Positions 31,870 through 49,098 of a DNA stretch of 64,000 bases are shown piece after piece (within the stretch, counting starts at the first letter, position 1; each line of letters starts with the position of its first letter). The stretch is from Enoplosus armatus (Eukaryota; Chordata; Actinopteri; Centrarchiformes; Enoplosidae). Under the pieces are notes generated by a model, which searched no databases, was not told the origin of the DNA, and saw only the letters and a list, made by a program, of their open reading frames with translations. The stretch spans positions 4,872,501-4,936,500 of the forward strand of contig NC_092198.1 in NCBI RefSeq assembly GCF_043641665.1, written 5' to 3'. Made by a program: the position numbers and the translations under genes.

Positions 31870-32865
31870 TCAAAGCAGTTTTGTGTTAGCAAAATCACCT
31901 TGAAATATTTTCCCAGAAATGATCATTCTGAAAGCCGATCTGAACCAGCTGTAAAAGAAAGCATAAATAAATGGATTGAGCATTGAATTTGACAATGTAA
32001 GCCAACCAGTTGTTTCAATCACAGCAGCTGGCACTGACACATGATTCAAAAGCTGAAAGGTAAAACAGAGAAAGAAAGGAGTCCAACAAATGAGGAAAAC
32101 TCCCATCACAATCGCAAGAGTTTTGGTGGCCTTTCTCTCCATCTTACTGACAGCTGCTCCAGACTTTGTGCTCTGACAGGTTGTGTTCTGGATGCTGCGT
32201 GCCTGTCTCTGAGCAACAAGGAAAATCTTCAGGTAGATACAGAGCATTATGATCGCTGGGACGTAAAATGACAAAATAGGTCCCAAAATGTTTGCCATTA
32301 AAACATCAATAACGCATTTTTCTTCACATTTTTCATGGTTTAATCCTACAATCGTAAAACCAATTGCTAGAAGAACAGAAACACTCCAGCTCACCAGGAT
32401 CATGACCGCAGCAACGTGAACATTTATCTTAGTTCTATATGTCAGAGGCTGACACACTGCATAATATCTGTCTATGGAAATACAACATAAATTCAAAATA
32501 GAAGCTGTGCTCAGTGTTACATTAAAGCTTTCTAGTACTTTGCAAATTAAATATTCATAATAAACACAATATATGGCGAATTCCATGTTTAAAGGAAAGA
32601 CTGAAACACCAACAAGCAGGTCAGCCACAGCCAAAGAAAGGATGAGAGAGTTAGTAGGAGTGTGGAGCTGTCTGAAGTAAATGATGGACATTATTACAAG
32701 AAGGTTTCCACATATTGTGGTAACAGATAATGATCCAAGGAAAATATATAATAAAACACAAATCATGGAAGGGTTTTTTTTCAGTATGTAAGAAACATTA
32801 TCTATTTCATAACAGGGATGTATGTTATGAACATAAGTGCGGTTGACAGTCACTTCTGGTGCCAT
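31870..32865 (-). CDS. TAAR-type olfactory receptor, copy 8 (Asp3.32 to Asn)
   Basis: The 331-residue receptor starts MAPEVTVNRTYVHNIHPCYE. The ECL1/TM3 start reads FAIYCVYYEYLICK, one residue shorter than its paralogues. Residue 115, aligned with Asp3.32, is Asn (codon at 32521-32523) in LESFNVTLS, and Arg3.28 is Leu. DRYYAV, CWTP and NSMLNPFIY are intact. TM7 starts ETTGWLTLSN. ICL3 carries SKMERK, shared only with copy 11 in the array. ATG at 32865 is 12 nt after the TTGCAG acceptor, with a 143-bp leader intron (32878-33020). Poly(A) signal AATAAAGATT lies near 31801-31810. The pocket change argues against classical amine binding, while the fold and G-protein motifs look functional. Confidence 0.95.
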   Translation of the reverse strand: MAPEVTVNRTYVHNIHPCYEIDNVSYILKKNPSMICVLLYIFLGSLSVTTICGNLLVIMSIIYFRQLHTPTNSLILSLAVADLLVGVSVFPLNMEFAIYCVYYEYLICKVLESFNVTLSTASILNLCCISIDRYYAVCQPLTYRTKINVHVAAVMILVSWSVSVLLAIGFTIVGLNHEKCEEKCVIDVLMANILGPILSFYVPAIIMLCIYLKIFLVAQRQARSIQNTTCQSTKSGAAVSKMERKATKTLAIVMGVFLICWTPFFLCFTFQLLNHVSVPAAVIETTGWLTLSNSMLNPFIYAFFYSWFRSAFRMIISGKIFQGDFANTKLL

Positions 32866-33100
32866 GTTTCTGGGTTCCTGCAAATCAGTTTTCCATTAAT
32901 GATTAACAATATACAAAGTACAAAAACATATGTGTTGATTTTAAAATATTATGCCTTGCATGAATGCAAAGCTACAATAATAGTTCTCGAGATGAAGAAG
33001 ATTTTCAGTTCATGTCATACCTTTTAAAGGCTCAAGATAGTCCACGCATCAGTGTCCATTACTGTGCCACTGTGCACGATCTTGATTTTTATCAACACCT

Positions 33101-33150
33101 GTCTCATTACCATAATGAATAAATTCTATAACTGTCCAATCAGATGTGGG
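33101..33150 (-). promoter_or_regulatory. promoter module of TAAR copy 8
   Basis: The same two-part array version as copy 7: CATCTGATTGGACAGTT followed by ATTCATTATGGTAATGAGAC. Confidence 0.65.
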
Positions 33151-33709
33151 GCTTTTCATCTTGATGACATTAGATACCAGAGCAAAATACTACACTGTAG
33201 ATGAGAACTGTAGAAGTCCTGTTCTTTTTTAGCAAAGCTAGCGGTGTGGCTCTAGGGATGGTGATGTCGGTCTGTCAGTCCGGACTGAAATATCTCAACG
33301 TCTATTAAAAGAATTTCCATGAAATATTCTACAGACATTAGTGGTCCCCAGAGGATGAATCCTACGGACTTTTGGGATCCCATGACCTTTTCTCTCGCGC
33401 CAACATGAGGTTGACATTTTTGGTTTTCAGTGACATTTCTCCAATGGGTGCCTGAAATTTTGTACCAAGAGGATGAATCTCAATTAATTTGGTGATCCTC
33501 TGACTTTTGGTGTAACACCACCAGCAGCTCAGATGTTTCACTTATTCTCAGAAATATCTCAACATCTACTACATTGCTGATCCCTTAACTTTTCCTCTGG
33601 TGCCAACAGGCCATCATCAGGTCCAAAACTTTGATTTATGACTAAATACCTACAAAACTATTGACATTTCCATCCGCCTCAGCTGTACTTTGTGTTCGGT
33701 GCTGATGAG

Positions 33710-46415: not shown

Positions 46416-46711
46416 CCCCCCCCGAACACAAACACTACTTATACGTTATATTAACGTACATCACCCCTGTCCCCCCTGCGTTACATTAACGCACCCACCC
46501 CCTACTGGACACTTTACCTGGACACTTTACTTTATTCTGGTCACTGCACTGTTGTTATTTATCTTATCTTATTTTTATTTTTATTCTTATTCTTATTTTA
46601 GCTTTTATATTCTACTTATTTGTTATCAAAACAATAGCACTTCAGACCACAGCAAATTCCTTATAATGTATGTTACTTGGCAATAAACAGTTTCTGGTTC
46701 TGATTCTGATT
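45366..46711 (+). mobile_element. 5'-truncated LINE in spacer after copy 11 (duplicate of 33.7-kb copy)
   Basis: The truncation point, the CTGATGAG flanks (45358-45365 and 46712-46719) and the insertion site are the same as in the copy at 33710. It was therefore duplicated with the spacer rather than inserted independently. The only visible differences are a few substitutions and a shorter C run after the stop codon. Confidence 0.9.
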
Positions 46712-48099
46712 CTGATGAGCAAATGTTAGCATGCTAACATGCTAAGCCAAAATGGTGAAAATGGTAAGCATTATACCTGCTAATATCAACATGTTAGCAT
46801 TGTCACTGTTAGCATGTTAGCATGCTGAGAATAGCATTCAGTTAAAAGCACCACTGTGCCTAAGTACAGCCTCACAGAGCCACTAGCATGGCTGTAGACT
46901 CTTAGTCTCATTTTGCTTGTAGACGATAAACTAGGCAGCCAAATTCTATACATTCTATCTAATAAATTATGACATTTGAAACTAAAATGTTATGGGCTTA
47001 GGGTTGATAAAACTAGAGAGAAATGGGGTTGAGCGTCCTCCACAAGCAGGAAAGTTACTAATTAGGTCATGGGCTTAAACAGTCATTAAACTGTAACTTA
47101 AGTTTTAGACTCCATCACTTGATATTATTTTCAATTTCACCATTGTTCTTCAGCTGTTCTGCCACTGTGTTGGGAACAAAGGAGGGTTTTGGCTCCCCCT
47201 TACACACTATGTGCATCTATATTCATAATATCGCAGCTCTATGGTTCTGTCATGTTTGAATAGGGCCACTAAAGAATATTTACATTAAGGAAACCTATGC
47301 TTTGCCTCCTCAAGCTGTTTGACACATGAATGTAGAGATGATGACACAGTGTCACGCCTAAAGTTCAGGTTACGTGTCCAGCACTAAAGTATTGATTGTG
47401 GTGATGAAGCATAATTTCTTCTTCTTCCTGCTTGTTTCTTACCTTCTTAAATGAAAGTGTTCATGAAATGGCCCCATAGTGCAGACCAACATCTCTCAGT
47501 AGAAGTAAATCATTCTTGTCAAAGAGGTTCAGAAAGGGGCCAACAATTACATATAGAGTGCAACTCTCGACAGGGCCGGACAGTTTGAGGCCCGAGGCTT
47601 AGAAGCACCAGTATTGATCCTGCAGAGGGAATGCCCTCATCCTGCAAGTGTTTGTAGATGTTTTGGAAAAGTAAACCACTGATCTAATTCAGTACACTTC
47701 ATTTTGTTAAAGATTATTAGTTTTGCTGTGCATTTAAACATGTACTAGATTAAACATTTGTAATAAAAGATAATCAATTTTATATTGAATATTCCATCGT
47801 AAGCATCTTAATGTCAGCATCATATAACTCCAATAAAAGTTGGAACAAGCACAAACAGAATATGCCTGTACATCTGTACATAGTGTGTTTGAGCTACTTT
47901 CAAGACTACATTAACTGACAGCTCATTATGATGCACCTCTACTCGTGTCTCAGTCAGTGTTTCACCTTAATGTGTATTTTTTATAGCATAATTATAATAA
48001 AAAACAGGTTGCCGAGTTTAATGACACACAATCTTTATTGTGCCAAATTTGATCAGTACTGACTCGTCCGTTGAATATTTCAGCACTCCAAAGAATATG

Positions 48100-49098
48100 T
48101 CAAAGCAGTTTTGTGTTAGCAAAATCACCTTGAAATATTTTCCCAGAAATGATCATTCTGAAAGCCGATCTGAACCAGCTGTAAAAGAAAGCATAAATAA
48201 ATGGATTGAGCATTGAATTTGACAGTGCAAGACAGTTAAGTGTTTCAATCACAGCGATTGGCACTGAGACATGATTCAAAAGCTGAAAGGTAAAACAGAG
48301 AAAGAAAGGAGTCCAACAAATTAGGAAAACTCCCATCACAATCACAAGAGTTTTGGTGGCCTTTCTCTCCGTCTTACTGACAGCTGCTCCAGACTTTGTG
48401 CTCTGACAGGTTGTGTTCTGGATGCTGCGTGCCTGTCTCTGAGCAACAAGGAAAATCTTCAGGTAGATACAGAGCATTATGATCGCTGGGACGTAAAATG
48501 AGAAAACAGGTCCCAAAATGTTTGCCAGTAAAACATGGATAAAACACTTTTCTTCACATTTTTCATCATTTAATCCTGCAATTATAAAACCAAGTGCTAG
48601 AAGAACAGAAACACTCCAGCTCACCAGGATCATGACGGCAACAACGTGAACATTTATCTTAGTTCTATATGTCAGAGGCTGACACACTGCATAATATCTG
48701 TCTATGGAAATACAACATAAATTCAAAATAGAAGCTGTGCTCAGTGTTACATTTAAGCTTTCCAGTACTTTGCATATTAAATATTCATAATAAAAACATA
48801 AGCTTACAGCGAATTCCATGTTTAAAGGAAAGACTGAAACACCAACAAGCAGGTCAGCCACAGCCAAAGAAAGGATGAGAGAGTTAGTAGGAGTGTGGAG
48901 CTGTCTGAAGTAAATGATGGACATTATTACAAGAAGGTTTCCACATATTGTGGTAACAGATAATGATCCAAGGAAGATATATAATAAAACACAAATCATG
49001 GAAGGGTTTTTTTTCAGTATGTAAGAAACATTATCTATTTCATAACAGGGATGTATGTTATGAACATAAGTGCGATTGACAGTCACTTCTGGTGCCAT
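48100..49098 (-). CDS. TAAR-type olfactory receptor, copy 12 (Asn3.32, Trp7.40 to Cys)
   Basis: The 332-residue receptor starts MAPEVTVNRTYVHNIHPCYE. TM3 reads LESLNVTLS, so Asn116 (codon 48751-48753) replaces Asp3.32 and Leu replaces the preceding Phe. TM7 reads ETLNCLALSNSMLNPF: the codon at 48232-48234 is TGT, Cys in place of the near-universal Trp7.40. The first half resembles copies 8 and 11 (GVSVFPLNMEF). The TM6-TM7 loop (SVPIAVIETLN) matches copy 7, so the gene looks mosaic. TM6 starts KTLVIVMG (Val for Ala). DRYYAV and CWTP are intact. The leader intron is 143 bp (49111-49253). Poly(A) signal AATAAAGATT lies near 48031-48040. Confidence 0.94.
   Translation of the reverse strand: MAPEVTVNRTYVHNIHPCYEIDNVSYILKKNPSMICVLLYIFLGSLSVTTICGNLLVIMSIIYFRQLHTPTNSLILSLAVADLLVGVSVFPLNMEFAVSLCFYYEYLICKVLESLNVTLSTASILNLCCISIDRYYAVCQPLTYRTKINVHVVAVMILVSWSVSVLLALGFIIAGLNDEKCEEKCFIHVLLANILGPVFSFYVPAIIMLCIYLKIFLVAQRQARSIQNTTCQSTKSGAAVSKTERKATKTLVIVMGVFLICWTPFFLCFTFQLLNHVSVPIAVIETLNCLALSNSMLNPFIYAFFYSWFRSAFRMIISGKIFQGDFANTKLL

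Follow-up and report, generated by a model that had tools for sequence, protein, structure and literature searches.

A stretch of 64,000 nucleotides from the genome of the fish Enoplosus armatus (NC_092198.1, positions 4,872,501 to 4,936,500, referred to here as the window) carries 14 genes for trace amine-associated receptors (TAARs), and five adjacent members of this array, copies 8 to 12, lack the aspartate at position 3.32 that binds the amine in classical TAARs. Copies 8-12 are intact TAARs that form one clade and that likely stem from a single loss of Asp3.32; they are likely to be olfactory receptors in which the ligand is predicted to be held by a contact other than the classical salt bridge at 3.32. 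We put the probability of this reading at about one half.

Position 3.32 was taken as the residue 17 places before the Asp of the DRY motif. It is Asn (codon AAT) in all five of copies 8-12 and Asp (GAT or GAC) in the nine other copies in the window, and position 3.28 follows the same division, being Leu (CTA or CTG) in the five and Arg in the nine. The three array genes that lie directly upstream of the window have both Asp3.32 and Arg3.28. All five copies have Gly5.42 and Pro5.43, and no acid was found at 5.42 or 5.43 in any of them. These results bear out an earlier note on this DNA, which had reported the changes at 3.32 and 3.28 and the lack of an acid at 5.42; its codon positions agree with ours, the figures given being the low end of each codon. 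The note had also listed the absence of Tyr7.43, which is true of copies 8-12 and is not specific to them: all 14 window copies carry Leu at 7.43, the three upstream genes carry Trp there, and since the loss of Tyr7.43 is array-wide we reject it as a mark of the five. The D3.32-W6.48-Y7.43 motif that has been named as characteristic of TAARs (PMC12476453) is incomplete in copies 8-12, which have Asn3.32 and Leu7.43 and keep Trp6.48. The TAAR fingerprint of helix 7, NSxxNPxxYxxxYxWF, is present in all 14 window copies, copies 8-12 included. Because the TAARs of clade III also lack Asp3.32, membership of the family was judged here by this fingerprint and by phylogeny and not by the three-residue motif.

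The phylogeny points to one event. A tree of 44 proteins with the 5-HT4 receptor as its root unites copies 8-12 in one clade (support 100/96) that copy 7 joins at 100/100, and the clade persists at 87/92 in a DNA tree from which codons 3.28 to 3.32 had been removed. Copies 8-12 hold together even without the codons of the trait, so the five genes most likely record one loss that was spread by duplication: judged from these trees, Asn3.32 is probably a single substitution event multiplied by duplication, and five independent losses of Asp3.32 are for the same reason less likely. The loss is recent, synonymous divergence (dS) among copies 7-12 being 0.01-0.07, and copy 7 is 91-95% identical in protein sequence to copies 8-12. 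Beyond the copies themselves, the array groups with one gene on contig C8 (98/98), and the two join TAAR1 weakly (79/70) in a tree whose members included 15 clade III-type open reading frames (ORFs) from the same genome and two TAAR13 proteins of zebrafish but no TAAR2-4, 10, 11, 12, 21 or 27 reference. Most of the named homologues are labelled 'TAAR 1-like'. The C8 gene, which is the array's nearest relative in the tree, has Tyr7.43, and beside it (C8:700501-744500) are three TAAR13-like genes that have an aspartate at 3.32 as well as at 5.42.

Asn at 3.32 is also foreign to the homologues that we surveyed. The best matches of three protein searches (120 of 4989, 112 of 112 and 120 of 647) gave 237 distinct proteins, six of them this genome's own and 231 from other species; the matches are best hits up to a fixed number and are cluster representatives, so rarer cases may be missed. 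Thirty of the 231 have no transmembrane helix 3 (TM3), and one further protein, P0209, was rejected as an Asn3.32 homologue and dropped as a misaligned fragment. Among the 200 listed homologues usable at 3.32, the residue is Asp in 195, Thr in three, Glu in two and Asn in none, and the pattern in copies 8-12 is therefore not a matter of chance. No acid was found at 5.42 in the 228 homologue rows with a residue at that site, and 3.28 is Arg in 188 of the 200. The three Thr3.32 proteins (P0028, P0041 and P0193) come from spiny eels of the genus Mastacembelus, two of them from M. armatus, and P0193 matches P0041 exactly. In a tree of 62 proteins they stand on a separate branch from copies 8-12, which means at least two losses of the acid at 3.32 within this percomorph subfamily. 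The parallel suggests that a subfamily already without Tyr7.43 and Arg2.64 may be prone to lose the acid. Both Glu3.32 proteins are from Chaetodon auriga; one of these, P0106, has Cys3.28 as well, so that both sites are altered.

Loss of the acid is expected to have consequences for the ligand. The D3.32N substitution abolishes the amine responses of lamprey sTAAR365 and of mTAAR9 (PMC8546428), and the clade I receptors TAAR10a and TAAR12h no longer respond when Asp3.32 is neutralised (PMC4695389). By analogy with these mutants of other receptors, a plain classical amine response of copies 8-12 is unlikely. The earlier note had suggested that the array might recognise non-classical ligands or use another acid, and the second of these ideas is partly favoured: candidates exist at Glu7.42 in two of the five copies, at Glu3.29 in four and at Glu7.36 in all five, and no new acid is common to the five. 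Within the array Glu7.42 (GAA) is confined to copies 9 and 10, and it occurs in none of the 229 listed homologues with a residue there; in these two copies position 7.42 is predicted to lie level with 3.32. In sTAAR365 the equivalent residue is Thr7.42, which is coplanar with Asp3.32 and touches polyamines, while Glu7.36, with Arg2.64 as its published partner, contributes to spermine recognition (PMC8546428). Glu7.36 is found in all 14 window copies and in 226 of 228 listed homologues; the partner has been replaced, residue 2.64 being Phe throughout the 14 copies and also in 207 of the 231 homologue rows. Position 3.29 is Glu in copies 8, 9, 10 and 12, Gln in copy 11 and Asp in copy 7. Glu2.63 is present in copies 6-12 and so predates the loss of Asp3.32. 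Position 2.63 is not known as a usual pocket position in helix 2 of class A receptors, and the residue there varies among the listed homologues (A, E, V, K, R, T and others); on all these grounds Glu2.63 was downgraded as a new acid.

These observations suggest a course of events in which the ancestor of copies 7-12 would have been an Asp3.32 receptor and one of its duplicates would have lost Asp3.32 together with the Arg that sits a helical turn higher, to be multiplied thereafter to five copies, presumably under diversifying selection. For copies 9 and 10 the prediction is that Glu7.42 on helix 7, on the other side of the same site, has taken over as counter-ion of the amine. The candidates that would remain for copies 8, 11 and 12 are Glu3.29, which copy 11 does not have, and the array-wide Glu7.36; copy 11, and copy 12 with its Trp7.40 lost, may bind neutral ligands instead.

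That last suggestion can be extended to the whole group, and the five receptors would then no longer bind amines, the pocket instead using polar contacts, Asn3.32 for one, to sense odours that are neutral or otherwise not amines. The absence of an acid at 3.32, 5.42 and 5.43 fits such a change of ligand, as do the lack of an acid at 7.42 in copies 8, 11 and 12 and at 3.29 in copy 11, and the loss of Trp7.40 from copy 12; moreover, Guo et al. modelled the binding of indole by TARLL1b through Phe5.38 and not Asp3.32 (PMC8890504). However, the only copies with Glu7.42 are 9 and 10, and it sits at a place where one would expect a substitute; Glu7.36 is present in all five. Clade III TAARs were themselves once proposed on the same grounds to be non-amine receptors, and some of them proved to be amine detectors (PMC4695389). 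We consider a general move to non-amine ligands a serious competitor, with the odds nonetheless against it.

Amino-acid change in copies 7-12 is concentrated in the outer, ligand-side half of the receptor. The amino acid varies in 36 of 103 outer-half codons and in 17 of the 233 others, compared with five and 10 silently varying codons, respectively (Fisher p 0.034 for the outer amino-acid excess), and the ratio of the non-synonymous to the synonymous proportion of differences (pN/pS) is 1.19 in the outer half and 0.40 in the inner half, against 0.60 and 0.23 in older pairs of the array; the two halves were divided by Ballesteros-Weinstein numbering after the variable codons had been seen. Codon models, run with a script of our own and not with PAML (the p values of the single site test and the three branch tests are not corrected for multiple testing), suggest positive selection, with the qualification that gene conversion may inflate the signal. 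The site model M2a was favoured over M1a (2dlnL, twice the difference in log likelihood, 14.06; p 9e-4), with 5% of sites at a non-synonymous to synonymous rate ratio (omega) of 6.3. The clade of copies 8-12 had an omega of 1.06 against 0.33 (p 9e-5), and the branch leading to it, for which the earlier note had proposed a calculation of dN/dS, gave an elevated stem omega of 5.1 (p 0.015). Six sites had a posterior above 0.8, five of them in outer helix ends or extracellular loop 2 (ECL2) and one N-terminal.

Several results weigh against the reading of copies 8-12 as intact receptors with a relocated contact. No acid is common to the five that the Asp3.32 copies lack, Glu7.36 and Glu2.63 being present in copy 7 too, and with no acid both new and shared, the case for a relocated counter-ion is strongest in copies 9 and 10. 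Positions 3.28 and 3.32 need not change together: an obligatory Arg3.28-Asp3.32 pair was downgraded because the Mastacembelus proteins combine Arg3.28 with Thr3.32 and because two of the 200 listed homologues combine Leu3.28 with Asp3.32. The sites 3.28, 3.32 and 7.42 are not among the six with high posterior. Units 8 and 11 have 5.26 kb in common (97.5% identity), a retrotransposon insert included (the comparison used non-overlapping rows only, since neighbouring units overlap), whereas the gene tree places copy 8 with copies 9 and 10; gene conversion is therefore likely, and it can inflate codon tests. An omega of about 1 for the clade, together with the roughly twofold rise of both the inner and the outer ratio over older pairs, also fits relaxed constraint on recently duplicated genes. 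Finally, five neutral frames would all remain open with a probability of 0.026 (0.077 if branches are scaled to 0.7 of their length), which makes the intactness of the five ORFs only mild evidence.

The last two points bear on the possibility that the five copies have no ligand and, having suffered a loss-of-function change, are on the way to becoming pseudogenes. Individual residue losses accord with such decay (Trp7.40 in copy 12, Pro2.59 in copy 9 and one codon at the end of TM2 and extracellular loop 1 in copy 8, the segment borders for this comparison having been picked by eye), as does the clade's omega. Yet all five frames are open and full-length at 331-332 amino acids (aa), the tested motifs of G protein-coupled receptors and of TAARs are present in every one, the inner half is still constrained, and of the six sites with a posterior above 0.8 for an omega of 6.3, five lie in outer helix ends or ECL2. 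We judge decay improbable.

The earlier note had linked copies 8-12 to the large teleost TAAR clades that have lost Asp3.32, and this link does not stand: those clades are clade III, and the array groups away from TAAR13 and clade III. A sample of 36 clade III-type ORFs was read in the same genome, 15 of which entered the tree. No acid is present at 3.32 in 32 of the 36, and all 36 have an acid at 5.42 (Asp in 33, Glu in three), a pattern that agrees with the description given for fish by Li et al. (PMC4695389). On this sequence comparison, copies 8-12 break the rule that Asp3.32-less TAARs of the same genome have an acid at 5.42. In the 44-protein tree TAAR7f, TAAR13 and the clade III-type genes of this genome make up a separate group (96/89). 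The separation of the array from clade III and the retention of the 5.42 acid by 36 of 36 clade III-type ORFs argue for a separate loss by another route. That copies 8-12 are known non-classical clade III receptors binding amines through Asp5.42 is hardly credible, common as Asp3.32-less teleost TAARs are (PMC4695389) and frequent as they are among the clade III-type ORFs here, because Gly5.42 in all five and the tree rule out membership of clade III. Two large clusters of clade III-type TAAR genes lie on contig C17, at about 1.58-1.81 Mb and 3.46-3.57 Mb, and a few of their copies have internal stops; three ORFs there have Glu and not Asp at 5.42.

Structural comparison agrees with the assignment to the family. 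AlphaFold models of copies 10 and 7 (mean predicted local distance difference test score, pLDDT, 72.2 and 72.7) have the helices of a seven-helix receptor; the models were used for confidence and secondary structure, and pocket positions were assigned by sequence numbering. Foldseek placed human TAAR1 first for the copy 10 model, and among the best 60 of 754 PDB sequence matches of copy 9 the top 15 are all TAARs, with TAAR1 first. The VIA-align list, in which numerous class A receptors have equal Z, did not sharpen the family call.

The array comprises 17 places in total. Each of the 14 genes in the window (Table 1) is a single uninterrupted open frame, and 13 are on the minus strand. The reverse-transcriptase ORFs upstream of copies 8 and 11 are near-identical and thus mark a duplicated unit common to these two copies. 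Copy 1 (5842-6783), the sole plus-strand array gene in the window, is missing about seven residues before TM1 and four at the top of TM5 by comparison with the other copies. In copy 2 (8448-9455, minus strand) the CWxP toggle reads CLTP, that is, Trp6.48 has become Leu; Leu6.48 is found in 14 of the 231 homologue rows of other species and is therefore recurrent within the subfamily.

Table 1. TAAR genes and retrotransposon-derived open reading frames of the window (positions within the 64,000 nucleotides; LINE, long interspersed nuclear element)
Feature	Positions	Strand	Description
Copies 1-5	5842..22643	copy 1 +, copies 2-5 -	Asp3.32 and Arg3.28 in each
Copy 6	24760..25749	-	Asp3.32, Arg3.28; Glu2.63 in common with copies 7-12
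Copy 7	28647..29645	-	Asp3.32 (GAC), Arg3.28, Asp3.29; closest kin of copies 8-12 and natural comparison receptor
Copy 8	31870..32865	-	Intact, 331 aa; Asn3.32 (codon 32521-32523), Leu3.28, Glu3.29, Gly7.39, Thr7.42
Copy 9	36447..37445	-	Intact, 332 aa; Asn3.32 (codon 37098-37100), Leu3.28, Glu3.29, Gly7.39, Ser2.59; Glu7.42 (GAA, 36573-36575)
Copy 10	39645..40643	-	Intact, 332 aa; Asn3.32 (codon 40296-40298), Leu3.28, Glu3.29, Gly7.39; Glu7.42 (GAA, 39771-39773)
Copy 11	43524..44522	-	Intact, 332 aa; Asn3.32 (codon 44175-44177), Leu3.28, Gln3.29, Ala7.42
Copy 12	48100..49098	-	Intact, 332 aa; Asn3.32 (codon 48751-48753), Leu3.28, Glu3.29, Leu3.31, Cys7.40
Copies 13-14	52197..57058	-	Asp3.32, Arg3.28
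Reverse-transcriptase ORF	541..3627	-	LINE-type retrotransposon
Reverse-transcriptase ORF	27191..28069	+	LINE-type; match under the Pfam cut-off
Reverse-transcriptase ORF	33665..34759	+	LINE-type fragment, upstream of copy 8
Reverse-transcriptase ORF	45321..46415	+	LINE-type fragment, upstream of copy 11; near-identical counterpart of 33665-34759

The change of amine anchor described for TAARs followed one ancient route, in which Asp5.42 was gained and Asp3.32 was then lost (PMC4695389). The loss in copies 8-12 is young and shows no trace of an Asp5.42 intermediate, and with the Asp3.32 receptor of copy 7 still adjoining at such high identity, the order of the changes and their effect on the ligand become directly testable. 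It is possible, if on balance unlikely, that the array records a second, independent escape from the Asp3.32 anchor, made outside clade III with no Asp5.42 involved, the counter-ion having passed from helix 3 to helix 7 (Glu7.42) within one young array that holds the ancestor-like copy 7, the anchor-less copies 8, 11 and 12 and the re-anchored copies 9 and 10. Loss of Asp3.32 outside clade III without Asp5.42 did not appear in the titles and abstracts listed by literature searches of an open-access collection. Absence of both acids is not new in itself, for zebrafish TAAR19f likewise lacks Asp3.32 and Asp5.42 (PMC4695389) and Guo et al. mention a few TAARs without both sites (PMC8890504). What appear to be new are the location outside clade III, the tandem array and Glu7.42.

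Comparison with known systems places the five genes accordingly. The array resembles the teleost TAARs of clade Ia (TAAR10, 11, 21 and 27 with TAAR1, in the naming of Guo et al. 2022, PMC8890504) in its family fingerprint and in its probable position on the TAAR1 side; it differs in that copies 8-12 lack Asp3.32 and in that no copy of the array has Tyr7.43 or Arg2.64, while residue 3.28 is Arg in the array except in copies 8-12, where it is Leu. With the zebrafish clade III receptors TAAR16c and TAAR16f the five share the loss of Asp3.32, but those receptors use Asp5.42. TAAR19 belongs to clade III in the list of Guo et al., whereas copies 8-12 are five tandem copies outside that clade. In mammalian TAAR7, residue 3.32 varies and is reported to be under positive selection (PMC4786312), although the mouse and rat changes named by Li et al. 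are from Asp to Glu and so still acidic, unlike Asn in copies 8-12. The TAAR1-like proteins of Mastacembelus are of the same percomorph subfamily and also have no acid at 5.42; they differ in keeping Arg3.28 on their separate branch, and P0028 has Glu3.33. Lamprey sTAAR365 uses position 7.42 and Glu7.36 to recognise polyamines (PMC8546428); it keeps Asp3.32 and has Thr7.42, whereas copies 9 and 10 combine the loss of Asp3.32 with Glu7.42.

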